DNA of 11,534 bases, from assembly GCA_019314105.1 (NCBI GenBank), contig JAFCZY010000031.1, forward strand, positions 1 to 11,534, in the 5' to 3' direction. The notes beneath the pieces were generated by a model. It made no database searches, was not told where the DNA came from, and saw only the letters and a list, made by a program, of their open reading frames with translations. The translations under genes were made by a program, and so were the position numbers. Below, piece by piece: positions 1-10,344 of the stretch (position 1 is the stretch's first letter; each line of letters starts with the position of its first letter). Origin of the DNA: Deltaproteobacteria bacterium. Lineage in GTDB: Bacteria; Desulfobacterota; Desulfobacteria; Desulfobacterales; Desulfobacteraceae.

Positions 1-117
1 CACATCTTCCTCAAGAGCAAGAGCTGCATTTGCCAAACCAATGCATATCGATGCTTTTTCTGCATCTTCTCCTCCAACCGTACACATATAAAGTATTTTT
101 TGTTGTTTTTCAGTCAT
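1..117 (-). CDS. DsrE-family protein, second paralogue (N-terminal 39 residues only)
   Basis: This is the first part of a gene whose 3' end lies beyond the left edge; 39 codons are readable from an ATG at 117. It begins MTEKQQKILYMCTVGGED and matches the N-terminus of the complete DsrE-like protein just upstream at about 23 of 39 positions, including the motifs Y-x-CT-x-GGED-x-E and ASIC. The two are therefore tandem paralogues. The family comprises small alpha/beta proteins that carry sulfur as a cysteine persulfide or sit beside sulfur-relay proteins. The putative active CxxC seen in the neighbour (residues 85-88) would fall outside the window, so it is not known whether this copy is catalytic. 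The upstream purine stretch (AAGAGA, about 125-130) is a weak Shine-Dalgarno site. It is probably the last or next-to-last visible gene of the hdr-like operon. Confidence 0.8.
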   Translation of the reverse strand, partial: MTEKQQKILYMCTVGGEDAEKASICIGLANAALALEEDV

Positions 118-155
118 TATTTATAATCTCTTTTTATAAATTTATTTTAAATACT

Positions 156-186
156 TGGGTATATACTTATCTACAGAACATACCCA
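156..186. repeat. Small inverted repeat between the two dsrE-like genes
   Basis: Seven bases TGGGTAT (156-162) are the exact reverse complement of ATACCCA (180-186), with a 17-base loop. No T-run follows on the transcribed (minus) strand, so it is not a convincing terminator. It may be a weak intercistronic hairpin or chance in AT-rich DNA. Confidence 0.3.
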
Positions 187-195
187 TGTTAAAAT

Positions 196-570
196 TTAGT
201 AAACCAGATGGGCATCAGATTCCAATGCAAGCAAATTTAATGTACCACCAGCAGTAATTTTAGCGCCTTCAATCAATTGTGTGTCTTCGATTTTTCTTTC
301 TTCAATACAGGGTTTGCATACAAGGAGTTTTCCCCCAAATTCCAAAAAATCACTGATCAGTTTTGATATCGGAGCAAAGCCGCCTACTTCAGGAACATGG
401 TCTGCATAGCCTTGCAGCGCAAGATAGACAGCTTTGCCTTGAAGGGCTACAGTTGTTTCAATATCAAGTGCAAGAGCGGCTCCTGCCATTGCAAAACAAA
501 TGGAAGCCCTTTCACAATCTTCTCCACCATGGGTACAAAAATAAATAATTTTTTCAACTTTTTCAGACAT
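196..570 (-). CDS. DsrE-family sulfur-carrier-like protein
   Basis: A complete 124-residue protein of the DsrE/DsrF-like fold. It starts at the ATG at 570, preceded by a good Shine-Dalgarno site (AGGGG, RC of about 577-583). Visible features are the N-terminal strand with Y10-x-C12-T-x-GGED18, ASIC (C25), a hydrophobic AALALD segment typical of the family, and VCKPC (C85, C88), which sits where DsrE/TusD-type proteins carry the sulfur-binding cysteine. Such proteins usually receive persulfide sulfur from or pass it to TusA in the cytoplasm; a TusA-family gene heads this same operon. It follows the HdrB-like gene by 43 bases, and a paralogue follows 78 bases downstream. Family assignment is firm. 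The exact role (carrier, or subunit of a DsrEFH-like hetero-oligomer with its paralogue) is inference. Confidence 0.88.
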   Translation of the reverse strand: MSEKVEKIIYFCTHGGEDCERASICFAMAGAALALDIETTVALQGKAVYLALQGYADHVPEVGGFAPISKLISDFLEFGGKLLVCKPCIEERKIEDTQLIEGAKITAGGTLNLLALESDAHLVY

Positions 571-613
571 TTTATTCCCCTTTGATTTAATGTTTTATAA
601 TTTGTTTGTATTA

Positions 614-1507
614 TTAAATATGTCTAACAAGTAAAGTGCTTAAGTCTTCGACATCAGCACCGGATTTTTTAAGATTTCCAAGGCAAATCGTAAGTTCTTC
701 AACTCTTTTTCCCATAATTTCATTTGAAAGACTTGGAGAAATTGACTCGGCAGGCCCACCGCAACAACTTGTGAATTCGCCCTTATTTCTAATTTCGGAC
801 TCAGTGATTCCTAAATTTCCCAGTACTTTTCTTGGTATGTCTGATAATTTAAGATATCTTCCGAAAAAACAGGGGTCATGAATAGTGACCTCAAGCCCTA
901 AGTCTTTCGATTCAAGGTCAAGAAGTTCAAAATATGATTTTACTTCAAAACTGATGCCTGTATATTTGGGAAAAAGTTCTTTTATGGCATATGCCGTATG
1001 TGGATCAACTGTAATAATTTTTTTTATTCCCGCATCTTTCAATTTCTGAGCAACCTTTTTCGCATGGACCACAAATCCTTTCTGATCACCCATATCATAG
1101 AGAAGAATACCGGAATAATTATCAAGGTCTGGTCTGTAACCAAAATCCACCTTTGATTTTTGAAGAAGTAACGCAATGTCTTTCAGGGGCTGCCCGGCAT
1201 CTTTTTTCTCTTTTCCTGATGTCATCATGGCAAGACCAATACCGGAAAGATATCCCGGCATATATTTGGCATATTTTAAAAGGGATGCCATTTTGGTACC
1301 CTCATATTTTTCAAGATATTGAGTTGATTTTTCAATAAACGGAGCAAACTGATACATCAGCCCTGTGATCAGCATATATTCGCCTTCTTTCGGCAGGCTG
1401 AGGTCCTTGAACCATTTATTGACCATAAATTTAGGGATGCCAAAAGGACTTGTTGTCTGTTTTACATTGTTGGCAAGAGTTTCGATTATATCTCTGGGAT
1501 TAAACAT
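614..1507 (-). CDS. HdrB/HdrD-like CCG-domain iron-sulfur protein with reduced cysteine set
   Basis: A 297-residue protein related to the catalytic HdrB/HdrD subunits and QmoC's soluble part. A very strong Shine-Dalgarno site (GGAGGAGGT, RC of about 1515-1523) precedes the ATG at 1507, 2 bases after the HdrC-like stop. The C-terminal half keeps most of a CCG motif: HDPC213-FFGR, then SC248-C249-GGP, but the final CxxC is C275-LGN. The N-terminal half shows the outline of a first CCG repeat with its cysteines gone: the segment ITVDPHTAY (166-173) stands where a CxxC would be. No membrane helix is evident, so unlike QmoC this subunit should be soluble. In the family, CCG domains hold the unusual [4Fe-4S] clusters that break disulfides. 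Here at most one altered cluster is likely. The HdrC-like partner is directly upstream and two DsrE-like genes follow. Confidence 0.82.
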   Translation of the reverse strand: MFNPRDIIETLANNVKQTTSPFGIPKFMVNKWFKDLSLPKEGEYMLITGLMYQFAPFIEKSTQYLEKYEGTKMASLLKYAKYMPGYLSGIGLAMMTSGKEKKDAGQPLKDIALLLQKSKVDFGYRPDLDNYSGILLYDMGDQKGFVVHAKKVAQKLKDAGIKKIITVDPHTAYAIKELFPKYTGISFEVKSYFELLDLESKDLGLEVTIHDPCFFGRYLKLSDIPRKVLGNLGITESEIRNKGEFTSCCGGPAESISPSLSNEIMGKRVEELTICLGNLKKSGADVEDLSTLLVRHI

Positions 1508-1509
1508 TT

Positions 1510-1812
1510 TTAAGACCTCCTCCAGTTTGCAACAACAAATCGTTTCAGACCCAGAATAATTTCACCCGGGTCAGCTTCTCTCGGACAGGTATGGGTACAA
1601 AGCCCGCAGTGAAGGCAACGCCATAATTCATCAGAATTTTCAAGGATTTTTTCCCGGGCACCTACCTGAATATATCGAATCATTCGCCTGGGAAAATTAT
1701 CATGGACAAGAGGGCAGATGGCTGCACATGTCCCACAGTTAAAACACTCAAGCGCCGTGTCGTCACTATACTCTTTCAACTCTTCTGCAAAATCTAAGTT
1801 TATAGTAGTCAT
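1510..1812 (-). CDS. HdrC-like protein with two [4Fe-4S] ferredoxin motifs
   Basis: A 100-residue protein resembling HdrC and the N-terminal part of QmoC. It carries two full ferredoxin motifs, CFNCGTCAAICP (about residues 23-34) and CLHCGLCTHTCP (about 66-77), so it should hold two [4Fe-4S] clusters that wire the flavin subunit to the HdrB-like protein. The ATG at 1812 is chosen because AGAGG (RC of 1819-1823) lies 6 bases upstream and the winged-helix gene stops at 1814, one base before it. A longer reading to 1851 would add a Lys-rich stretch inside the upstream gene without a ribosome site. It is co-transcribed with the HdrB-like gene two bases downstream. The HdrC-HdrB order mirrors canonical heterodisulfide reductases. 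Confidence 0.9.
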   Translation of the reverse strand: MTTINLDFAEELKEYSDDTALECFNCGTCAAICPLVHDNFPRRMIRYIQVGAREKILENSDELWRCLHCGLCTHTCPREADPGEIILGLKRFVVANWRRS

Positions 1813-1813
1813 G

Positions 1814-2155
1814 TTAAACCTCTGCTTTTTCTTGGGATTTGTCTGCTTCACTCAAAAAATATTTAAAAAAGACGCCCTCTTTCGGACCTTCTACAATCTG
1901 ACCATATTTTTTCAGGGTTGCCATATACCAGAGAGTTTTATCTTTCGGCAGTTCAGCGCCTTCAGCAATTTCAGGAATGGTTGCGGTCTGACCATTTAAA
2001 AAATTCTTAATTGCTTTAATATCTTTTTTCTGTTCTTTCATTATTTTTGAAGCAGCGGCTATCAGAGTCTTTCGTTGGACACGCAATTCTTTCATTGCTG
2101 CTTTTTTTGCCTCTTTGGCTTTGTCTGCGCCTTTGTCTTTATCGTTATTTTCCAT
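1814..2155 (-). CDS. Small winged-helix-like protein with Lys-rich N-terminus
   Basis: A 113-residue protein starting at the ATG at 2155, with AGGAAG about 8 bases upstream. Residues 1-48 are highly charged (many Lys/Glu/Asp) and probably form a helix. Residues about 45-102 read as a winged-helix domain: a helix (AIKNFLNGQ), a TIPEIAEGAELPKDKTLWYM segment typical of helix-turn-helix 'IPEIA' units, then a GQIVEG-PKEGVFFKYFL wing. That fold normally binds DNA, but the gene sits inside an electron-transfer operon between hdrA-like and hdrC-like genes, so it may be a local regulator or an accessory protein that binds the complex. sHdr clusters of sulfur oxidisers also hold a small protein of unknown function among their hdr genes, but I cannot show homology. 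Function unassigned. Confidence 0.75.
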   Translation of the reverse strand: MENNDKDKGADKAKEAKKAAMKELRVQRKTLIAAASKIMKEQKKDIKAIKNFLNGQTATIPEIAEGAELPKDKTLWYMATLKKYGQIVEGPKEGVFFKYFLSEADKSQEKAEV

Positions 2156-2193
2156 TATATTTCTTCCTATTAAAAAGAAGTTTTGTGAATCAA

Positions 2194-3999
2194 TCAGACA
2201 GCAAATCCATCTGAAACAATAGCATCAACCATATCTTCATACTGTTTTAATGCCCATCCATTTATATCAATGGCTTTTTCCGGACAAACCGCAGCACAGG
2301 CACCACAGCCTAAACACATGGCAGCAGTTACCTGAGCTCTCTTGACTGTTTTACCGTCAATATCTACCTCTACAAGGGTTAAAGCACCTTCTTTAAGGCA
2401 AGCTTCTATACAGGCACCATGTCCCTGACATTTGTTAGGGTTGACCTCTGCCACAAAAGGATCAAGTTCAATAAATCCTTTTCTTAAAAGAGCAGATGCT
2501 TTTACAGCTGCTGCACCCGCAGCATTACATGCTTCACCCACATCCATGGGTGCCTGACAGGTGCCGGCGAGAAAAATTCCAGTTATGGGAAATTCAACAG
2601 GTCTAAGTTTTGGATGAACTTCCAGAAGAAATTTATCTGTTCCAATAGGTAGCTTCATCATTGAGGCAAGGCCTGAAACATCATCAGGTTCGATGCCGGT
2701 TGCAAGCACAACAAGATCTGCTGGAACATCCATTTCTTCATTAAAGGTCAAGCTGTCTTTAACTTTGACCTGAAAAGGGTAATCAGAATCACGGGTCAAG
2801 CTTACCTCTGGTTGTGCATTTGCTTCATATCGCATAAAAACAACTTTGTTGGCAGACGCCTGGGTATACAGTTCTTCCTGCCCTCTGCCATAAGTTCTGA
2901 TATCTCTGTACATTTCATAAATACGGGTCGCAGGAAAATTTTCTTTAATCTGGTTTGATGCGTTTAACATGGCAGCACAACATGTTCTGGAACAGTATTC
3001 ATTCAACTTTCCATCTTCTTTAGGTTGATGAATACCAGGTATCTGGCGGCTGCCAACACAATGAATCATTACAATATTTCTAATGCGTTTACCATTTACC
3101 TCAAGTATAGATCCTGTTGATTTGTTATTTTTTAAAATTTGAATCAAATTTTGAAGCGTAATCACTTGTTCATGCTGACCAAAGCCGAATTCTCCATCAA
3201 AAGGGATATAGGGGATAGCGCCTGTTGCCATTACAATGGCACCGGTCTCTATATTTAATTTTTCAATTTTATTATCGGATTTTTTTGAAATACTCAGACT
3301 GAAATTTCCCACATATCCTTGTACTGCTTCAATTTCACAATCTGTATGAATTGTGATGGATTTATGGGTTAAAATCTGATCTAAAAGTTCCTGTAGAACT
3401 TCTGATGCTTTTTCTCCGGAAGGAGCAAGTTTGTCAAGATTATTCAGCTGTCCACCCAGAAGTGATGATTTTTCAATAAGGGCGACATTAATCCCTGTTT
3501 GAGCAATATCAATTGCAGTTTTAATCCCTGCAATGCCGCCTCCGATCACTGTTGTATGCTTTTTGGCTTCAACACGGATCGGATCAAGGGGGGTGAGTAA
3601 ATTTGCTTTGGCTGCAGCGGATGCAATAAGGATAGTGGCCTTGTCAGTAGCAGGCTCACCGTGATGGACCCAGGAAACCTGTTCCCTGATATTGGCATGT
3701 TCATAGATAAACGGGTTGGAACCCGCTCTTTTAATGGCATCCCTGAAAGTTGCTTCATGAAGGCTTGGTGCACACGATGCCACTACCACCCGGTCAATCT
3801 TACCGCTTTTCAAATCATTTATAATCAGTTCCTGACCCGGGTCTGAGCACATGAACATGTTGGTTCGGGCCACAACAACATTTGGCATTTTTTCAGCTCT
3901 TTTTTTGACTTCTTCAACATCAACATGATCAGAAATATTGCCGCCGCAATAACATATATAAACACCGACTTTTTTATTATCTGTATTTTTTTCAGTCAT
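2194..3999 (-). CDS. HdrA-like FAD/iron-sulfur protein (601 aa, QmoB-like)
   Basis: Flavin- and iron-sulfur-containing electron-transfer subunit. The ATG at 3999 is used because GGAG (RC of 4007-4010) precedes it and the upstream gene stops one base before; a 27-residue longer reading would lie within that gene. Order of parts: HdrA N-terminal domain with ICYCGG (C16, C18), C51 and ASCAPSLHE (C76); FAD-binding GGGIAG (153-158) followed by LLGGQL; CVGSR (C314) and CSRTCC (C336, C340, C341), the HdrA-specific cysteines near the flavin; and a C-terminal two-cluster ferredoxin. The first ferredoxin motif is C524-x2-H527-x2-C530-x3-C534, with His in place of the second Cys. The second is complete (C562, C565, C568, C572). 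It lacks the inserted ferredoxin and the DCASC-type motif carried by its 435-residue neighbour. The pair resembles QmoA/QmoB, with the MvhD part on a separate gene. Confidence 0.9.
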   Translation of the reverse strand: MTEKNTDNKKVGVYICYCGGNISDHVDVEEVKKRAEKMPNVVVARTNMFMCSDPGQELIINDLKSGKIDRVVVASCAPSLHEATFRDAIKRAGSNPFIYEHANIREQVSWVHHGEPATDKATILIASAAAKANLLTPLDPIRVEAKKHTTVIGGGIAGIKTAIDIAQTGINVALIEKSSLLGGQLNNLDKLAPSGEKASEVLQELLDQILTHKSITIHTDCEIEAVQGYVGNFSLSISKKSDNKIEKLNIETGAIVMATGAIPYIPFDGEFGFGQHEQVITLQNLIQILKNNKSTGSILEVNGKRIRNIVMIHCVGSRQIPGIHQPKEDGKLNEYCSRTCCAAMLNASNQIKENFPATRIYEMYRDIRTYGRGQEELYTQASANKVVFMRYEANAQPEVSLTRDSDYPFQVKVKDSLTFNEEMDVPADLVVLATGIEPDDVSGLASMMKLPIGTDKFLLEVHPKLRPVEFPITGIFLAGTCQAPMDVGEACNAAGAAAVKASALLRKGFIELDPFVAEVNPNKCQGHGACIEACLKEGALTLVEVDIDGKTVKRAQVTAAMCLGCGACAAVCPEKAIDINGWALKQYEDMVDAIVSDGFAV

Positions 4000-4000
4000 T

Positions 4001-5308
4001 TTAATTCTCCATAATGCTGTTGGACATGAATTTGGCAGCTTCCATAGCGGCTGAGCCTGATTCTGTAACGGTGTCCACAATATCCTTGGGTCCTGCTGCA
4101 GCTCCGGCTACGAAAAAGTCGTTCATATTAGTAAGTACCGGGGATATTTTTGGTTTTATTGAGGTAATAAAGTGATCGGAATCTTTGGAAACAGGGCAGA
4201 TGGGCGCAGGGTTCCAACCGGGAATCATTCCCATGGAAAGAACAACCAGATCATGGTTTGCTGTTACAATACCTGAACCGTCCTGGTTTTCATACCTTAC
4301 TATTGCGCTTCCGTTTTCACCCGCATCAATCCTTGCCACCTTGCCTTTGATAAACTCAATGCCCATGGCTTTTGCATTTTGATAAAATTGTTCATACCCT
4401 TTCCCAAACGCCCTGATATCCATGTAATAAATAGTGATATCAGCCAAGGGGAGAGAACCTGACAGCAGCATTGCCTGCTTTATGGCATACATGCAGCATA
4501 CCCTTGAGCAGTAGGGAACCCCCATACTCTTATCTCTTGAACCTGCACATTGAACATAGGCAATGGAATCAGGTTCCATGCCGTCTGAAGGTCTCAATAC
4601 CCTGTTATAGGGTCCATGAGGCGCTAAGAGCCTTTCCATCTGTAAAGAGTCTACAACATTTGGTATTTTGCCACTACCGTATTGGAAATTATCTTCCTTC
4701 GGCAGCAACTCAAACCCTGTAGTGATGATAGCTGTTTTTGCCTGAATGATAAACTCTTCCGGCTTTTGAAAATAATCAATGGCATTTGTAGGGCATACTT
4801 TTTCACATTGCCCGCAGAGCATGCAGTTTTCTATATCCATTATCGGCAGTTGAGGGATTGCATTTGAAAAAGGGATTGAAATCGCTTTTGTAGCGCTTAA
4901 CCCTCCTTGCTCCTCATCTGACACATATATAGGGCAAACATACTCACATTGCCTGCACCCGATACATTTATCCGGGTCAACATATCTTGGATTTTGTATA
5001 ATCACAGCTTTAACGCCCAGGGCTTCGTTAGAAGTATCATGATCTAATGAGGTCAAATTACAATATGTAAACAGGGGGATATTTTTATGATGTGCAGCAG
5101 CTGACATTTTAGGGGTGGTAATACAGCTTGCGCAATCAAGTGTGGGAAATACTTTTGAAAGCCGGATCATTTTGCCGCCAATAGAAGCATCTTTTTCCAC
5201 AATAGCAACCTTATACCCTTGATCGCCAAGATCTAAAGCTGTTTGTAATCCGGCAATGCCGCCACCTACAACAAGCGTATCAAATTTTTTTATGTGTGTG
5301 GAGACCAT
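4001..5308 (-). CDS. HdrA-like flavoprotein with inserted ferredoxin (435 aa, QmoA-like)
   Basis: A shorter HdrA homologue that begins directly with the FAD-binding fold, GGGIAG at residues 15-20, and so lacks the usual HdrA N-terminal domain and the C-terminal ferredoxin. It has the HdrA motif VFPTLDC59-AS-C62, then an inserted ferredoxin with two complete motifs (C115, C118, C121, C125; C162, C165, C168, C172), then CAGSRD (C254) and CSRVCC (C267, C271, C272). The Shine-Dalgarno site AGGAGG (RC of about 5312-5317) sits 4 bases before the ATG at 5308. It is followed with a single-base gap by the second HdrA-like gene. In Qmo and Hdr complexes such subunits hold FAD and pass electrons among clusters; bifurcation has been shown for some HdrA proteins but cannot be claimed here. 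Confidence 0.9.
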   Translation of the reverse strand: MVSTHIKKFDTLVVGGGIAGLQTALDLGDQGYKVAIVEKDASIGGKMIRLSKVFPTLDCASCITTPKMSAAAHHKNIPLFTYCNLTSLDHDTSNEALGVKAVIIQNPRYVDPDKCIGCRQCEYVCPIYVSDEEQGGLSATKAISIPFSNAIPQLPIMDIENCMLCGQCEKVCPTNAIDYFQKPEEFIIQAKTAIITTGFELLPKEDNFQYGSGKIPNVVDSLQMERLLAPHGPYNRVLRPSDGMEPDSIAYVQCAGSRDKSMGVPYCSRVCCMYAIKQAMLLSGSLPLADITIYYMDIRAFGKGYEQFYQNAKAMGIEFIKGKVARIDAGENGSAIVRYENQDGSGIVTANHDLVVLSMGMIPGWNPAPICPVSKDSDHFITSIKPKISPVLTNMNDFFVAGAAAGPKDIVDTVTESGSAAMEAAKFMSNSIMEN

Positions 5309-5335
5309 ACATCCTCCTGAAAAATTTCTTTTTTT

Positions 5336-5364
5336 AGTTCACTGCCTGAAAAAGGCAGTGAACT
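5336..5364 (-). repeat. Perfect 12-bp hairpin between mvhD-like and hdrA-like genes
   Basis: AGTTCACTGCCT (5336-5347) and AGGCAGTGAACT (5353-5364) are perfect reverse complements with a 5-base loop. In the operon's direction (minus strand) the stem is followed by a run of A, not T, so it is not a standard terminator. It lies about 20 bases upstream of the Shine-Dalgarno site of the 435-aa hdrA-like gene. A role in mRNA processing or in stabilising the downstream segment is the most natural reading, but it is inference. Confidence 0.75.
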
Positions 5365-5401
5365 GATAATTTGTCTGTTGCTCTAAATAGATTAAAAATT
5401 G

Positions 5402-5821
5402 TTATTTTTTAAATATAGGAGGTCCCAGTTCACGCACTAACTTGTCCATCTGGTTCACCTCATTTAAAAAAGACCGATTACAAACCGTACAAATAGCTGT
5501 CAGACGAAGACGTTTTAGATCAAGTTCCATTGCCTTCATTTTCTTGTAAACACCGTCCAACCGTTTTGCCATGGCCGTAAACGCACCTTCATAGGGACAT
5601 TCTTCACCACAGGACATAACAATGATGCCACTTATCCCTTTTTTAAAGCAGTCAAAATAAAAAGATTCAGGGAAAAGCACAGGTGCCCTTACTCTTAAAA
5701 TATAAGTATTTGCAGGGTAAGTTGAATGGGCTTGTCCCACTGAATCTGCTCCGGGATAAGCACAAGTTTCTGTGGCCAATATCAAAATTTTATTCTCTTG
5801 TTTTTTTGCCTGGGGTGACAT
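5402..5821 (-). CDS. MvhD-like (hydrogenase iron-sulfur subunit family) electron-transfer protein
   Basis: A 139-residue protein related to MvhD, the [2Fe-2S] adaptor that passes electrons to HdrA, and to the C-terminal domain of QmoB. Family landmarks are TCAYPGADSVG near the N-terminus, STYPANTYILRVRAP, GIIVMSCGEECPY and an RLRLT segment. The usual ligand pattern is changed: the first Cys of the CxWC motif is absent, the Cys expected after RV is replaced (RVRAP), the GC-x4-C pair survives (C71, C75, counted from the ATG at 5821), and an extra CTVC (C111, C114) appears near the end. The ATG at 5821 overlaps a purine-rich site (AGGCAGGTGG) that includes the tusA stop; a GTG two codons earlier (5827) is also possible. 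The gene lies 10 bases after the tusA-like gene. Confidence 0.85.
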   Translation of the reverse strand: MSPQAKKQENKILILATETCAYPGADSVGQAHSTYPANTYILRVRAPVLFPESFYFDCFKKGISGIIVMSCGEECPYEGAFTAMAKRLDGVYKKMKAMELDLKRLRLTAICTVCNRSFLNEVNQMDKLVRELGPPIFKK

Positions 5822-5831
5822 AACCACCTGC

Positions 5832-6080
5832 CTATTTATTTCTTGTTACAAAATGCCTGTCATAACCGTCAGCTTCAAGAAAACCAAGATATTCATGTCC
5901 AACTTTTCCAGCCCATGCAGGGATATCAGTTCTTGTCCCGGAATCATTGGATAGAATTTCAATAATCTGACCAACCTGAACTTTGCCAATACCTTTTTTG
6001 GCTTCAAGAAGGGGTCCAGGACATGCACTGCCTCTTGCGTCAACCTGATTTGCGGCTTCAATTGAATTTAAATCTGTCAT
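5832..6080 (-). CDS. TusA-family sulfur carrier protein
   Basis: An 82-residue cytoplasmic sulfur carrier of the TusA/SirA/YeeD family. The signature is DARGSAC20-PGPLLEAKK, where C20 in the CPxP motif is the persulfide-carrying cysteine, followed by the family's VGQIIEILSNDSGTRTDIPAW segment and a C-terminal GYDRHFVTRNK. The ATG at 6080 has GGAGG (RC of 6089-6093) 8 bases upstream; the 14-codon longer reading to 6122 lacks a ribosome site. It is the first gene of the minus-strand operon, about 70 bases after the predicted start of a sigma54 promoter. TusA proteins relay sulfane sulfur to partners such as DsrE, encoded further along. Being first suggests that sulfur delivery to or from the Hdr-like complex is its job here. 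Confidence 0.9.
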   Translation of the reverse strand: MTDLNSIEAANQVDARGSACPGPLLEAKKGIGKVQVGQIIEILSNDSGTRTDIPAWAGKVGHEYLGFLEADGYDRHFVTRNK

Positions 6081-6160
6081 TTTTTTATCCTCCGTTAAGG
6101 GTTTATGGTGCATCTTTATCAATGATATTCAGATGCGGCGTTACTCTTTTATCAGCTTAG

Positions 6161-6176
6161 AGCAAGGTTGGTGCCA
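6161..6176 (-). promoter_or_regulatory. Sigma54 (-24/-12) promoter of the tusA/hdr-like operon
   Basis: Read on the minus strand: TGGCACC-AACC-TTGCT, against the consensus TGGCACG-N4-TTGCW. The GG and GC pairs are intact and 10 bases apart. Predicted transcription start is near 6150, leaving a leader of about 70 bases before the tusA-like ATG at 6080. A sigma54 promoter requires an enhancer-binding protein such as the one encoded at 8917-10299. Confidence 0.85.
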
Positions 6177-6445
6177 AAACCGAAAAATAATCAAAATAAA
6201 TAGAGTGTTAATGCTTCGTAGTACCTGTAAATTCAGTATCTTTTCTTTTTTAATGAATAAAAAGAAAGCCCTGGCATTTATTTCAGATCGTTACCCGTAA
6301 ATAGAATGGTAACGTTATGGTTGCGCTACTTATTGTGAACCAACATTGTTTTGGTTGGGGAAAATAGCGGTTTCAAAACAATTTTTTATTCAAAATCGGT
6401 ATAATCAGGTGATTGGACAAAAATTTTGATTGTAACGAAACAAGT

Positions 6446-6461
6446 TGGCATTAAGTATGCA
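6446..6461 (+). promoter_or_regulatory. Possible sigma54 promoter ahead of the candidate small RNA
   Basis: TGGCATT-AAGT-ATGCA keeps the invariant GG and GC with the correct 10-base gap and four of five bases of the -12 box. It lies about 75 bases before the stand-alone terminator, so transcription would start near 6472. It is weaker than the other three sigma54 sites, and its -12 box lies within the AAGTATGCAT direct repeat. Confidence 0.45.
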
Positions 6462-6471
6462 TATTCCATTT

Positions 6472-6581
6472 TTCAGTTATCAGATAAAGTATGCATTTAC
6501 TTACCTCCAAAATCTGATTAACCACCTCACCGTTATCCGGGGCAGCTTGTATACCGCCAGTAGCTGCCCCGGATTTTTTTT
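6472..6581 (+). ncRNA. Candidate small regulatory RNA (about 110 nt)
   Basis: Between the possible sigma54 site and a strong terminator there is no open reading frame longer than a few codons, so a short RNA is the likely product. The part before the terminator stem carries two C-rich, probably single-stranded patches, ACCTCC (6503-6508) and ACCACCTCACC (6521-6531), which are complementary to Shine-Dalgarno sequences. The 3' end is a stem with a T-run, the usual form of Hfq-type small RNAs. The start is predicted, not observed. It could instead be only an insulating terminator. Confidence 0.45.
6535..6581 (+). terminator. Strong rho-independent terminator, stand-alone
   Basis: ATCCGGGGCAGCT (6535-6547) pairs perfectly over 13 bp with AGCTGCCCCGGAT (6562-6574), followed directly by an unbroken T-run to 6581. 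The loop is 14 bases. It is oriented to the right, yet no plus-strand protein gene precedes it: the nearest gene to the left is divergent. It therefore ends either a small RNA or read-through from unannotated transcription, 200 bases before the porin gene. Confidence 0.9.
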
Positions 6582-6715
6582 GTTAATCAGCATTACAGAT
6601 AATTAACAAATCGTTAACATTATCCTTATGTTTTTTTGTCTTATGATCAACATTTAACTCTATTTTATCCTATAAAATTAACTAGTTATAAAACTTTTTT
6701 TTATATTTAAACCCC

Positions 6716-6730
6716 TGGCACGGTTGTTGA
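6716..6730 (+). promoter_or_regulatory. Sigma54 (-24/-12) promoter of the porin operon
   Basis: TGGCACG-GTTG-TTGA matches the consensus perfectly at -24 with correct spacing to the -12 box. The start is expected near 6741, giving a 45-base leader before the ATG at 6786. It is nearly identical (14 of 15 bases) to the promoter at 10482-10496. Confidence 0.88.
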
Positions 6731-6785
6731 TAAATATACCGGAAAGGAAGTTAACAATTAAAGGATAATGAAAAGGAGAAATGAG

Positions 6786-8492
6786 ATGAAAAAAGTGTTT
6801 GTGTATTGTCTTTTCTCTGTGTTTTTTTTAACGCTGCCGGCAGTTGCATCTGATGATGTTGAACTGCTGAAAAACGAGCTGAAAAAAATATCACAGACCA
6901 TGGAGATGCTGCAAAAGAAAATTGAAACCATGGAAGAAAAAAACAAGGAAGAAAAAGAAGAGGTCCAATCTCTCAGTGAACGGGTGGATAAGACAGAACT
7001 CCATACGGCTACCGATAAGGTTTCTCTGGGAGTTGAGTTAAGAACGGAAGGGCACAGCATTTATTATAAAGATATGCTGGTGGCACCGTCATCATTAACT
7101 CAGGGGTTTTTTACGCCCTATGCTGCTGATGGTACGGGTGGCTTTTACGGTGGAACATTGGAGCAGATTCAGGGTGGGATGGCAGGAATGGCAGCGGCCG
7201 GTATGATACCGCCTGTTGAAAAATATGATGCAGACAATAAATTCCTGCCCACCAACAAGTTTAATTTGAATATGAAGGCAAAGGTTAACAAAAATCTGAG
7301 TTTTGACGGAAGGCTTGCTGCGTATAAAGTGTGGGGAGATTCTACCGGTATCAAAACCAATACCGGCAGTCTTGGTGATGTGACCTTGGACGGCAATACG
7401 TCTTCGCTTCCCCATGGTGATACCATCCGTCTTGAACGGGCCTATTTTGTCTATTCAAAAGATGTGGGGAGTGTTCCGGTCAGTTTTTCTCTTGGCAGAC
7501 GACCGTCAACAGACGGAGCGCCTATGGAATACGAAAAAAACAGTATGGTAGCGGGATCACCCCTTGCACCCATTATCAACTGGCAGTTTGATGGCGCGTC
7601 TTTAAATTTTGGTCTGGAAGAGGTTACCAATATTCCCGGTGCTGCTTTTAAACTCTGCTATGGTGTGGGATTTGAAGGCGGGTGGGGTAATTCTTATTCA
7701 CTTCAGAATACTTCGGCAGATGTGGATGATGTTCATATGCTTGGTGCGATTACAACCCTGTATGATGATGATTCAACCAGCGCAGTCCTGAACTATGCCC
7801 ATGCCTGGGGGATGACCGACGGGTTTGCCGGACTGACGCTTATGCCGTTTATTGCTTATAAAGCAGATAAAGATGGTGATGGTACAAGTGAGTATTATTT
7901 TGAGCCGAACTACGGGGGATATATCAGCCGTATGCAGCCAATGACTGAAATCGGTGACTGGGATGGCGCATCCCTGCTGTTAAAATCCAATCTGGATGAG
8001 GTTGTTGAAAAGGATATCGATGTCTTTCTGGCGCTGTCCTGGAGTCATACCGATCCGTCACAGATTTCTCAAAATCCCTTCTACGAAATTATGGGTCAGG
8101 GATTGTTAAGTTCAAATGGACAGCTTGAATCCCATCATGGATACAGCATTTACGCCGGTGTTCTTTTACCCATGCCCCTGGATGCAAAATGGGGATTTGA
8201 GTATAACTGGGGATCAAAATACTGGTTTAACCTTTCCGGGGCTGAGGATTCCATTACCGGAAGCAAGCTATCCGCCAGAGGCAGTGTGTTTGAAACCTAT
8301 TATATCCAGCCCGTTGTTTCAGATAATTTCTTTTTGAAACTGGGAATGAAATATTATGATTATAAATATACAGGAAGCGGGAATCCCCTGGGTGCACCGG
8401 TAGAAATTTCAGAGGCGAATGCTCTGGATGCAATTTTTCCAATTATTGATAAAGTATGGGATATTTCTGCGTCATTAACCATGCGGTTTTAG
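6786..8492 (+). CDS. Outer-membrane porin-like protein (DUF3373-type)
   Basis: A 568-residue outer-membrane beta-barrel protein. The ATG at 6786 has AGGAG 8 bases upstream and gives a clean signal peptide, MKKVFVYCLFSVFFLTLPAVA, with cleavage around residues 21-22. The ATG six codons earlier (6768) adds only charged residues. After cleavage comes a heptad-rich charged coiled coil (about 24-68: LLKNELKKISQTMEML and following), as in trimeric porins anchored to peptidoglycan. Then follow many alternating aromatic/polar strands and a C-terminal ISASLTMRF ending in Phe, the usual insertion signal. The segment with SLGRRPSTDGAPMEYEKN and INWQFDG is typical of DUF3373 proteins in Desulfobacterota and Campylobacterota. 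The transported substrate is unknown. It is the first gene after a sigma54 promoter, with the cytochrome-like gene 53 bases downstream. Confidence 0.85.
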   Translation: MKKVFVYCLFSVFFLTLPAVASDDVELLKNELKKISQTMEMLQKKIETMEEKNKEEKEEVQSLSERVDKTELHTATDKVSLGVELRTEGHSIYYKDMLVAPSSLTQGFFTPYAADGTGGFYGGTLEQIQGGMAGMAAAGMIPPVEKYDADNKFLPTNKFNLNMKAKVNKNLSFDGRLAAYKVWGDSTGIKTNTGSLGDVTLDGNTSSLPHGDTIRLERAYFVYSKDVGSVPVSFSLGRRPSTDGAPMEYEKNSMVAGSPLAPIINWQFDGASLNFGLEEVTNIPGAAFKLCYGVGFEGGWGNSYSLQNTSADVDDVHMLGAITTLYDDDSTSAVLNYAHAWGMTDGFAGLTLMPFIAYKADKDGDGTSEYYFEPNYGGYISRMQPMTEIGDWDGASLLLKSNLDEVVEKDIDVFLALSWSHTDPSQISQNPFYEIMGQGLLSSNGQLESHHGYSIYAGVLLPMPLDAKWGFEYNWGSKYWFNLSGAEDSITGSKLSARGSVFETYYIQPVVSDNFFLKLGMKYYDYKYTGSGNPLGAPVEISEANALDAIFPIIDKVWDISASLTMRF

Positions 8493-8545
8493 TGGAAAAA
8501 TTGAAACAAATAAAGTTATCTAAACAAAAAAAGAGAGAAAGCAAA

Positions 8546-8893
8546 ATGAATAAAAAATTAATTGTTCTGGCTATAGCAATCCTGTTTGTCTTCTCAGGGG
8601 CATCTGTTTTATTTGCCCAGGGTCCTGACGGGAATAAAAGAAAAGGTAAATATACCTATAGAACTGTTTATAAATCCTGCGCCGCCAGAGGTGAAGTGGA
8701 ATCAAAAACCCCCTTTATCAGCCCGAGTGATAAAACAATGGCACAGTGGGAAAGAATTTTTGAAAAAAAGAAATTTGATTTTTTTAAATGCAGTACTGAA
8801 TGGGGAAATCTCTCTGAGGAAGATATGAACGATATCTATACTTACCTCTATAATTATGCAGCAGATTCTCCAACACCGGCTAAATGTAAGTAA
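8546..8893 (+). CDS. Secreted cytochrome c-like protein lacking the haem-binding motif
   Basis: A 115-residue exported protein. The ATG at 8546 opens a signal peptide (residues 1-24, ending SVLFA|Q). A longer in-frame reading from 8456 would lie inside the porin gene. The ribosome site is a weak GAGAGA stretch. The mature part has the layout of small monohaem cytochromes of sulfur and metal reducers: GKYTYRTVYKSCAARGE, then KTMAQWERIF, then LSEEDMNDIYTYLYNYAADSP and a C-terminal Cys. Where a cytochrome would have CxxCH, this protein has Y42-K-S-C45-A46, so covalent haem binding is not expected. C45, C82 and C114 remain. It probably acts in the periplasm beside the porin encoded just upstream, in the same operon. 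The role could be binding, sensing or structural; it is not known. Confidence 0.75.
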   Translation: MNKKLIVLAIAILFVFSGASVLFAQGPDGNKRKGKYTYRTVYKSCAARGEVESKTPFISPSDKTMAQWERIFEKKKFDFFKCSTEWGNLSEEDMNDIYTYLYNYAADSPTPAKCK

Positions 8894-8916
8894 GTTTAAA
8901 GAGAGTTGCTTATAAA

Positions 8917-10299
8917 TTAAGGCTGAAGTGGTATATCCCACTTTTTCATGTATTTCCAGATAGATGCCCGGCTTAATCTCACACGTCTGGCCACTTCAGC
9001 CTTATTCCACTGACTGTCATGGAGCAGATCCATTAATTTTTCTCTGGTCAAAGGAGAAATAGGATCACCTTCCTGCACAACAGACTTTGATATTATATCC
9101 GGTTCTCTGATTTCAATGGGAAGATCTGCGATATCAATCTGTCTGTTGGAACATAAAACAAAGGCATGTTCAATGGCATTGGCCAATTCTCTTATGTTAC
9201 CCGGCCATGCATAATCCATAAATGCTTTTAAAGCTATTTTTGCAATTCCTTTTACTTTAATTGCCGATTTTTCATTGTTTGTTTTAACAAAGTGGTTGAC
9301 AAGAAGAGGGATATCTTCTTTCCTGTTTCTCAAAGGCGGCAGGTAAATGGGAAAAACTTTAAGCCGGTAATAGAGATCCTCTCTGAAGTAACCGCTATCT
9401 ACCCGGGATTTAAGATCTTTGTTTGTGGCAGCGATGATACGAATATCAATTTTACGTTTTCTGGATTCACCCACCCGTTCTATCTCTTTTTGCTGTAGCA
9501 CTCGAAGTAGTTTTACCTGTATGTAAGGCGTAATCTCTCCTATTTCATCTAAAAATATAGTACCGCCGTCCGCTTGTTCGAATCGTCCGATACGGTCCTG
9601 GCCGGCACCGGTAAAGGCACCCTTTATATGACCGAAAAGTTCACTTTCAAGCAAAGATTCCGAAAGGGCACTGCAATTTATGGTTATTAAAGGCTTATCC
9701 CTTCGTTCTCCGATGGAATGAATCGCACCTGCTACAAGTTCTTTCCCGGTTCCGGTTTCTCCCTGAATGAGTATGGTTGCATCACTTGCTGCCGAGGCTT
9801 TAATAAAGGTAAATACGTTTTGCATGACCTGACTTTTTGCAATAATACCGCCCAGACGATTTAATTCTCCGAGACGACGGGTGGCCTCTTCCATTTTTAA
9901 TCTGGCATTTTTCAATTCTGTTAAATCTGTAACCACTTCAACAATTCCAATGATTTTATTCTGCCCGTTTTTTATCACCCGGGCATTCTTAGTTACAGAG
10001 AGAGCATGCCCTTCTTTATGGCTCAATAAACATTCTGTGGGTTCCACCTTTCCATATGTTAAAATACCACAATCTTTCATATCTATTGGACAATCCTTAT
10101 CAAAGCACTGATTAAAATTCAGAATTTTACAGGGCTGTCCTTTTATCTCGTCGGCAGAATAACCGGTTATTTTTTCCATGGCCGGATTCCAGGCAATAAT
10201 CATTCCATGGGTATCAAGTACAAAAATACCGTCACCAATGGATTCAAGCAGTAATTTGACAAATTCATTATTTTTTATTTCAAATTCTATATCTTTCAT
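8917..10299 (-). CDS. PAS-domain sigma54-dependent transcriptional activator
   Basis: A 460-residue bacterial enhancer-binding protein. The ATG at 10299 has AAGGA 7 bases upstream; a reading from 10344 would add 15 residues without a ribosome site. Residues about 12-128 form a PAS sensor (GDGIFVLDTHGMIIAWNPAM) with a cysteine cluster C57, C65, C70, C77 and C90. A linker coiled coil (128-150) leads to the AAA+ domain: Walker A GETGTGKE (180-187), the sigma54-contacting GAFTGA loop (227-232), Walker B GGTIFLDEIGE (245-255), and likely arginine fingers in FREDLYYRL (305-313). The C-terminus is a Fis-type HTH (430-450, NKAEVARRVRLSRASIW). There is no receiver domain, so it senses its signal directly rather than through a kinase. 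It lies between operons with sigma54 promoters and is the natural candidate to control them. Confidence 0.93.
   Translation of the reverse strand: MKDIEFEIKNNEFVKLLLESIGDGIFVLDTHGMIIAWNPAMEKITGYSADEIKGQPCKILNFNQCFDKDCPIDMKDCGILTYGKVEPTECLLSHKEGHALSVTKNARVIKNGQNKIIGIVEVVTDLTELKNARLKMEEATRRLGELNRLGGIIAKSQVMQNVFTFIKASAASDATILIQGETGTGKELVAGAIHSIGERRDKPLITINCSALSESLLESELFGHIKGAFTGAGQDRIGRFEQADGGTIFLDEIGEITPYIQVKLLRVLQQKEIERVGESRKRKIDIRIIAATNKDLKSRVDSGYFREDLYYRLKVFPIYLPPLRNRKEDIPLLVNHFVKTNNEKSAIKVKGIAKIALKAFMDYAWPGNIRELANAIEHAFVLCSNRQIDIADLPIEIREPDIISKSVVQEGDPISPLTREKLMDLLHDSQWNKAEVARRVRLSRASIWKYMKKWDIPLQP
8918..9004. repeat. 14-bp perfect inverted repeat spanning the 3' end of the activator gene
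   Basis: TAAGGCTGAAGTGG (8918-8931) is the exact reverse complement of CCACTTCAGCCTTA (8991-9004), with 59 bases between. The first arm overlaps the stop codon of the activator; the second encodes KAEVA in its HTH. The enclosed DNA encodes the recognition helix. It may form a long-range hairpin at the mRNA end or be a protein-binding or recombination site; none of these is shown. Confidence 0.7.
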
Positions 10300-10323
10300 G
10301 AAGGCATCCTTTTTATTCAATCT

Positions 10324-10344
10324 TGGCGCTACTGGTGGCGCCAC
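10324..10344. promoter_or_regulatory. Palindromic element in the leader of the activator gene
   Basis: TGGCGC (10324-10329) and GCGCCA (10338-10343) form a 6-bp stem with an 8-base loop; GTGGCGCCAC (10335-10344) is also a perfect 10-bp palindrome by itself. It falls between the predicted sigma70 start (about 10352) and the ribosome site, so it could be an operator or a leader hairpin that limits expression. Confidence 0.45.

Follow-up and report, generated by a model that had tools for sequence, protein, structure and literature searches.

The stretch analysed here (the window) is a complete, Desulfobacula-like contig of 11,534 bp (C332) from a Desulfobacteraceae genome of 2.7 Mb in 478 contigs, and it carries an operon that joins genes for sulfur carriers of the TusA and DsrE families to genes for Hdr-type electron-transfer subunits. 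On the minus strand, from 6080 to 1, the order is tusA, mvhD, hdrAa, hdrAb, a winged-helix gene, hdrC, hdrB, dsrE and a partial dsrE, with gaps of 1 to 93 nt between the genes when probable starts are used. Comparison with relatives set these starts at 6080 for tusA, 5821 for mvhD, 3999 for hdrAb and 1812 for hdrC, the mechanically derived open reading frames (ORFs) beginning earlier. A preliminary description of the window had listed these genes as tightly spaced on one strand, and Pfam profiles and ORFs recovered all of them on the minus strand. Of the two DsrE-like proteins that it named, the first is complete; since the window is the whole contig and ends there, the second is limited to 39 codons at the contig edge. 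The features are as follows:

5832..6080, minus strand: tusA, sulfur carrier with a CPGP motif, first gene of the operon (PF01206, E 1.5e-18)
5402..5821, minus strand: mvhD/flpD-like iron-sulfur subunit (PF02662, E 1.6e-19)
4001..5308, minus strand: hdrAa, HdrA FAD domain with an inserted two-cluster ferredoxin domain, without the HdrA N-terminal domain and C-terminal ferredoxin (match to HdrA of 5odc; own clade)
2194..3999, minus strand: hdrAb, HdrA N-terminal domain, FAD domain without the inserted ferredoxin, and C-terminal ferredoxin (two-stretch HdrA match that skips the insert; own clade)
1814..2155, minus strand: gene for a small winged-helix-type protein of 113 aa between hdrAb and hdrC (NCBI names of relatives; no Pfam match)
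1510..1812, minus strand: hdrC-like gene, soluble product with two 4Fe-4S clusters (Cys columns; partial NF038018 match)
614..1507, minus strand: hdrB-like gene, single CCG (non-cubane 4Fe-4S) site (PF02754 once; Cys columns)
196..570, minus strand: dsrE with a CxxC motif (PF02635, E 1.6e-16)
1..117, minus strand: second dsrE, first 39 codons, the remainder lying past the contig end (L098 has this gene complete)
6161..6176, minus strand: sigma-54 type -24/-12 element TGGCAC-N5-TTGCT upstream of tusA (exact match)
8917..10344, minus strand: PAS and sigma-54 activator of the NtrC type, probable regulator of the operon (PF00158, E 3.4e-70; PAS)

The closest named relative, locus L098, comes from a Desulfobacula metagenome-assembled genome (MAG); its DNA is 92% identical across window positions 2-6580, and its HdrAa and HdrAb are 98% and 96% identical to those of the window (tree columns). 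More widely, when 395 genomes of the phylum were searched with HdrB, 15 strong relatives lay outside the window's own genome (E <= 2.5e-65); species genomes, scanned in addition, contributed 80 named loci, the best 80 of 212 confirmed. With the window and 20 fetched stretches these form a set of 101 loci, 92 of them distinct. When gene order was compared across genomes, as the preliminary description had proposed, all eight genes were found together in 45 of the 47 distinct loci whose sequence extends beyond 6 kb before hdrB and 1.8 kb after it. The eight-gene set is a real recurring unit, beyond chance. In five loci dsrE precedes tusA instead of following hdrB and keeps its membership of the operon. 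Among the named hosts are Desulfobacter vibrioformis, Desulfospira joergensenii, Desulfosarcina widdelii, two Desulfacinum species, Desulfamplus and strain NaphS2. Type II, as distinct from type I, is a more remote form of the operon in loci L049-L052, with HdrB 34-37% identical and gene order unchanged. A dsrA match at E below 1e-160 was present in 15/15 type I genomes of the phylum draw, a co-occurrence uncorrected for relatedness in which the 15 genomes cover seven family codes; overall, 187/395 genomes have dsrA above cut-off. The best dsrA match in the window's own genome is 1.3e-105, and the type II hosts G029, G155 and G101 also carry dsrA.

HdrAa aligns with methanogen HdrA (5odc) residues 146-562 only, that is, with the FAD domain and its inserted ferredoxin. 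HdrAb aligns with HdrA in two stretches that leave out the insert, and it has the N-terminal domain, the FAD domain minus the insert, and the C-terminal ferredoxin. HdrAa and HdrAb are complementary pieces of one full HdrA. A match to 6tjr is confined to HdrAa residues 188-426. In type II HdrAa, a further module separates the two cluster motifs of the inserted ferredoxin. That of L052 is GltD-like and of the NAD(P)H type (Fer4_20 and Pyr_redox families), and the alignment is split in the same way in L049, L050 and L051.

In a careful tree of 53 proteins, with 15 HdrAa rows (type I, type II and one archaeal), 15 HdrAb rows and 16 rows of QmoA and QmoB, the clades received supports of 100/100 for HdrAa, 99/94 for HdrAb and 100/99 for QmoA+QmoB. 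A larger quick tree (77 rows, 22 of them QmoA or QmoB) was concordant, at 100, 89 (unstarred) and 99, respectively. Approximately unbiased (AU) tests rejected the grouping of HdrAa with QmoA (p 5e-5) and of HdrAb with QmoB (p 2.7e-4), against QmoA/QmoB references without type II Qmo. Descent as a Qmo/sHdr hybrid, which the preliminary description had implied, is not supported by these trees and tests, in which HdrAa and HdrAb form clades of their own apart from QmoA+QmoB. HdrAb is sister to the long HdrAs of the phylum in the careful tree, so that the HdrAa/HdrAb pair did not arise by recent tandem duplication. A plasmid search with HdrAa for sHdr-type references returned only two records, from Ilyobacter and Picosynechococcus.

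Across 82 aligned type I copies of HdrB, the five C-terminal Cys of one CCG site are invariant, the window copy excepted, and no N-terminal Cys is conserved; two canonical HdrBs from the same phylum, which served as controls, have both CCG sites. Judged from these columns, HdrB is predicted to retain one of the two non-cubane cluster sites. The HdrC-like protein (100 aa) has eight Cys in 80/80 type I copies. The QmoC model NF038018 matches it over model positions 2-94 of 360 only, and HdrC is thus without the membrane part, in agreement with the earlier remark that the set lacks Qmo's membrane component. Of the six Cys conserved in type I MvhD, five are present in 59/59 copies and one in 56/59. 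The small protein has no Pfam match, and some of its relatives are labelled 'winged helix-turn-helix domain-containing protein' by NCBI; its gene is present in 81 type I, four type II and one archaeal copies, and 1320 relatives were found at E <= 0.001.

The motif Cys of TusA is present in 56/56 type I copies, and the CxxC motif of DsrE in 69/69 type I copies that have residues there; those that have none include ORFs stopping at that codon. In 9 of 80 dsrE copies, eight type I and one type II (L050, L101, L104, L116, L118, L122, L125, L127 and L132), a UGA stands exactly at the first Cys of CxxC. Because this stop codon is always TGA, conserved sequence continues in frame behind it, the read-through products score 127-153 bits against the family in all nine loci, and no in-frame TGA lies inside a family match in the other operon genes of the 91 non-window loci, the UGA likely encodes selenocysteine. 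DsrE-like selenoproteins have been listed before, and selB is above cut-off in 9/9 genomes with UGA-type DsrE. Less favourable to selenocysteine, selB is also present in 6/6 tested genomes with Cys-type DsrE, in only one of three sequences does the region behind the UGA fold clearly better than its shuffled versions, with an unconvincing hairpin, and no family of selenocysteine insertion sequence (SECIS) elements matched the stretch after the dsrE UGA. No Rfam elements were found in the window. The Cys/Sec-x-x-Cys site suggests that DsrE would carry out redox chemistry rather than mere sulfur relay, and the Cys/UGA-x-x-Cys motif strengthens the case that the complex would act on a carrier-bound persulfide or disulfide. 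The only solved structure found among relatives of DsrE is 3mc3, which we take to be a Sulfolobus DsrE3-type protein.

Selenocysteine was also considered for HdrAb, three ORFs of which are split, and was dropped: the two TGA-ended ones continue in another frame, and the third ends in TAA. An extra TusA-like gene lies close upstream of the operon tusA in 9/92 loci (L053, L054, L057, L059, L060, L068, L081, L093 and L129); the one in L057 reads WSCPWC around the usual motif.

Of the 53 distinct type I loci that extend 300 nt or more upstream, 42 have a -24/-12 element of this kind before tusA, where single-base shuffles lead one to expect 0.08; the pattern was drawn up after a looser first count, duplicates included, of 49/66 against 3.9 expected. 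A homologue of the PAS/sigma-54 activator is found in 50/92 loci, the window counted. Its gene lies directly upstream of the operon in L098; in the window the two are 2.3 kb apart, with a pair of unrelated genes in between. The activator is the probable regulator of the operon. The intervening stretch of the window (6581-8918), which is missing from L098, holds a DUF3373 gene and a 145-aa gene on the plus strand, and neither has a homologue in the other 91 loci.

Past the position of the window's left edge, the next genes in L098 are the second dsrE, one for a 241-aa protein, metV and metF. In the window's own genome, metV and metF lie on contig C313, which synteny places next to the window; C313 then reads lpd, gcvT, gcvH, gcvPA, gcvPB, lipB and lipA from translations, with GcvH confirmed by PF01597. 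This bears on the earlier remark that no lipoate-binding protein gene accompanies the operon, although one could lie beyond the left edge. The GcvH found past that edge lies in an apparent glycine-cleavage operon (gcvT-gcvH-gcvP-lipB-lipA). A search of 12 genomes for GcvH-like or lipoate-binding genes gave no match in G029 and G101 and none near the operon in nine others, so that the remark held. Among the 92 loci, homologues of the 241-aa protein were found in 39, of MetV in 14, of MetF in 13, of a YedE-type transporter in five and of two rhodaneses in six each; the transporter, the rhodaneses and the extra TusA-like genes give these loci a sulfur-related setting. The protein that directly follows dsrE in L098 (L098:11821-12546) belongs to a conserved group of 235-241 aa with an invariant C-x4-C-x4-C-P-H, and it has no match in Pfam, NCBIfam or the PDB.

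Several known systems share part of this gene set. QmoABC likewise has two HdrA-like flavoproteins, an MvhD-type domain and an HdrC-like iron-sulfur domain. The operon differs from it in its separate HdrA clades, in encoding MvhD as a gene of its own, in having HdrB, TusA and DsrE, and in lacking a membrane subunit. Moreover, no AprA match at E 1e-40 was found in the flanks available for the 92 loci (up to 10 kb, many shorter), whereas an AprA-like gene lies upstream of qmo in 6/6 loci inspected, three of them confirmed by TIGR02061. In the window's own genome, qmoC and a fragment of qmoB occur away from the operon. Given the trees, the AU tests, an HdrC without the QmoC membrane part and no aprA found alongside, we rejected membership of the Qmo family. 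The sHdr clusters of sulfur oxidisers are described as hdrC1B1A-hyp-hdrC2B2 with lbpA, tusA and dsrE (PMC6067878). Here too soluble Hdr-like genes occur with TusA and DsrE and with a small extra gene between hdrA and hdrC, and our operon shares the trait that both carriers are encoded with the complex; it differs in its MvhD, its two ferredoxin-bearing HdrAs and its single HdrB with one CCG site, and in that no LbpA was found. With no lbpA found and a set of one hdrB, one hdrC and two hdrA, it was rejected as a member of the sHdr group. What stands of the hybrid label is that TusA and DsrE travel with Hdr-like genes as one conserved unit; that unit is itself neither Qmo nor sHdr.

HdrABC-MvhADG of methanogens and sulfate-reducing bacteria (SRB) shares the HdrA modules, HdrC, HdrB and MvhD; in our operon, HdrA is split over two complementary proteins, HdrB is a half-site version, sulfur carriers are added, and no hydrogenase gene lies in the window. 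Canonical HdrABC was rejected because HdrA is not full-length and HdrB has one CCG site only. In a broader sense the operon is of the Hdr kind, with HdrA-type FAD and ferredoxin domains, HdrC and a CCG-domain subunit together; among the nearest published arrangements are HdrA-containing complexes in syntrophic SRB (PMC10553843) and hdrCBA-mvhDGA in Thermosulfurimonas (PMC4911364). The YTD, or yeeE-tusA-dsrEFH type II, cluster of sulfate reducers also places TusA and DsrE beside reductive Dsr, and the portions of PMC13293266 that describe it mention no Hdr genes; the DsrE of our operon has CxxC or UGA-x-x-C. No yedE is among the window genes and a YedE homologue occurs in 5/92 loci, and assignment to the YTD/DsrEFH type II group was dropped. 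The MetVF-HdrABC complex of acetogens includes MvhD, and it resembles the operon in that metV and metF can follow the latter. The two differ in the HdrA pair, HdrB, TusA and DsrE, and most of the 92 loci are without visible metVF (for acetogen MetFV-HdrABC, see PMC10553843). We found no description of the operon's gene set in the open-access literature, a scope that excludes subscription papers and supplements.

We propose, with about even confidence, that the operon encodes a soluble complex that would exchange two electrons between cytoplasmic carriers and a persulfide or disulfide bound to TusA and DsrE, more likely in the reductive direction. This would be a cytoplasmic Hdr-type complex dedicated to sulfur on small carrier proteins. 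HdrAa and HdrAb would form an asymmetric HdrA heterodimer, jointly providing one set of HdrA modules and two FAD domains. Contact with cytoplasmic electron carriers is likely made through the ferredoxin insert of HdrAa and through MvhD; in type II that insert also holds the NAD(P)H module. HdrC would relay the electrons to the one non-cubane cluster of HdrB, where the S-S bond of the persulfide or disulfide on TusA and on the Cys/Sec-x-x-Cys site of DsrE would be reduced (or, in reverse, formed), with sulfide released, or taken up in reverse. The PAS-sensing sigma-54 activator would turn the operon on. It is our judgement that the reaction would lean towards reduction in sulfate reducers and is likely reversible.

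Several observations weigh against this proposal. Relative to L098, the window hdrB has an in-frame gap of 33 nt that removes 11 residues, including one of the five otherwise invariant Cys; as a ligand Cys is missing, this copy may be defective or misassembled. Type I HdrB and the HdrB of L072 nest in a clade of archaeal CCG proteins (midpoint root). One of these relatives, in L186, lies in a row of genes for FAD-oxidase, 4Fe-4S, CCG and LUD (lactate-dehydrogenase-like) proteins according to Pfam; L197 resembles the L186 cluster by inspection, and the remaining archaeal relatives were seen via weak profile labels only. A lactate-dehydrogenase-type cluster may have been the source of part of the complex, and because of this nesting the CCG site alone is no proof of disulfide chemistry. 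The metV and metF genes that follow the operon in some Desulfobacterales hint at one-carbon (C1) metabolism. The sigma-54 element is found in 0/5 type II or archaeal loci, L114 has the Hdr part with no TusA or DsrE match, and L128 (Archaeoglobus JdFR-27) has hdrB alone of the operon genes. The type II host G310 has a weak dsrA match (2.7e-14), and no dsrA match was listed for G169, represented by an HdrB fragment that joins type II in the HdrB tree.

The archaeal relatives of HdrB were also considered as further copies of the operon, which was rejected for all except L072 (duplicate entry L185), the only one of those inspected with the other operon genes. This Archaeoglobaceae MAG (AUK153) has seven operon genes, tusA to hdrB, on a contig that stops just past hdrB. 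Its HdrB is type I-like and its HdrA proteins fall on the type II side; the GC content of the contig (0.378) is concordant with that of another contig of the same genome (0.375). L072 is a possible intermediate or transfer. In the FAD-oxidase/LUD clusters of L186 and L197, the Archaeoglobi HdrB relatives are accompanied by a small HdrC-like protein. Separately, L071, L073, L075, L086 and L097 have a second Hdr-like cluster after the operon, with a QmoA-like protein of 404-432 aa, an HdrA-like protein of 523-559 aa and an HdrC-like protein; the HdrA-like proteins from the downstream clusters of L071, L075 and L097 form separate clades.

An oxidative, sHdr-like role is a serious though doubtful alternative to this persulfide- or disulfide-reducing complex. 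Carrier-bound sulfane sulfur would be oxidised towards sulfite, with electrons passed to soluble carriers, as an entry to sulfur oxidation or disproportionation together with reductive Dsr, Apr and Sat. The presumed DsrE3-type identity of 3mc3, the YedE and rhodanese genes in some loci and the ties of TusA and DsrE to sHdr in sulfur oxidisers (PMC6067878) all point this way. So does an ArsR-type gene before tusA in L049 (by Pfam) and L051 (by sequence inspection), given that sulfane-sulfur-responsive ArsR repressors are described as controlling sulfur oxidation genes in Hyphomicrobium. However, no LbpA was found, there is one HdrB with one CCG site where sHdr has two HdrBs, no site for a four-electron oxidation to sulfite is obvious, and several of the named hosts are sulfate reducers.

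A bolder form of the reductive proposal, which we consider rather unlikely, is a flavin-bifurcating 'persulfide reductase' of sulfate reducers that has so far gone unrecognised. Here the asymmetric HdrA heterodimer and MvhD would split or join electrons between low-potential carriers and the sulfur bound to TusA and DsrE. The carriers would be NAD(P)H in type II and possibly MetVF in Desulfobacterales, and the catalytic Cys of DsrE would be selenocysteine in some lineages.

The metV and metF homologues, closely spaced after dsrE in L098 and carried in the window's own genome on adjoining C313, would also suit a C1 redox module, that is, a MetVF-Hdr-MvhD complex of the Wood-Ljungdahl pathway for whose cofactors TusA and DsrE merely supply sulfur. 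We regard this as unlikely: most of the 92 loci show no metVF, though many contigs end early, the own genome has seven MTHFR-domain matches, and the loci keep TusA and DsrE far more consistently than MetVF. A Qmo-like type II QmoAB-HdrBC complex serving adenosine 5'-phosphosulfate (APS) reductase is very unlikely. Type II qmoAB is reported to be nearer to hdrA than to bacterial qmoAB, and QmoAB-HdrBC is described from some Deltaproteobacteria (PMC10504309). Against this, the trees part HdrAa and HdrAb from the QmoA/QmoB rows used (16 and 22, type II Qmo not among them), an AprA-like gene lies beside qmo in the six loci inspected and no AprA match was found in the available, often short flanks of the operon, and qmoC is above cut-off in 9/15 genomes searched, the window's own included. 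Finally, although the TusA and DsrE families include carriers for biosynthesis, an operon supplying sulfur for tRNA thiolation or for Fe-S or Mo cofactors, in which the Hdr genes would be unrelated passengers, is highly improbable in view of the strict synteny with the Hdr genes and the co-occurrence with dsrA.

The handling of zero-valent sulfur in the cytoplasm of sulfate reducers and disproportionators is not settled by YTD/DsrEFH, Qmo or canonical Hdr genes, and this operon offers a discrete candidate in the cultured genera Desulfobacter, Desulfospira, Desulfosarcina and Desulfacinum. With its own probable regulator and promoter and its cultured hosts, it is therefore open to proteomics and purification. 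It adds a third arrangement of Hdr modules, besides Qmo and sHdr, and a natural Cys/UGA swap in DsrE would mark the catalytic residue. A bifurcating persulfide reductase, if true, would couple sulfane-sulfur turnover straight to the redox pool of the cytoplasm, with neither membrane nor quinones involved. The operon may point to an uncharacterised route by which sulfate reducers move electrons on and off protein-bound sulfur.

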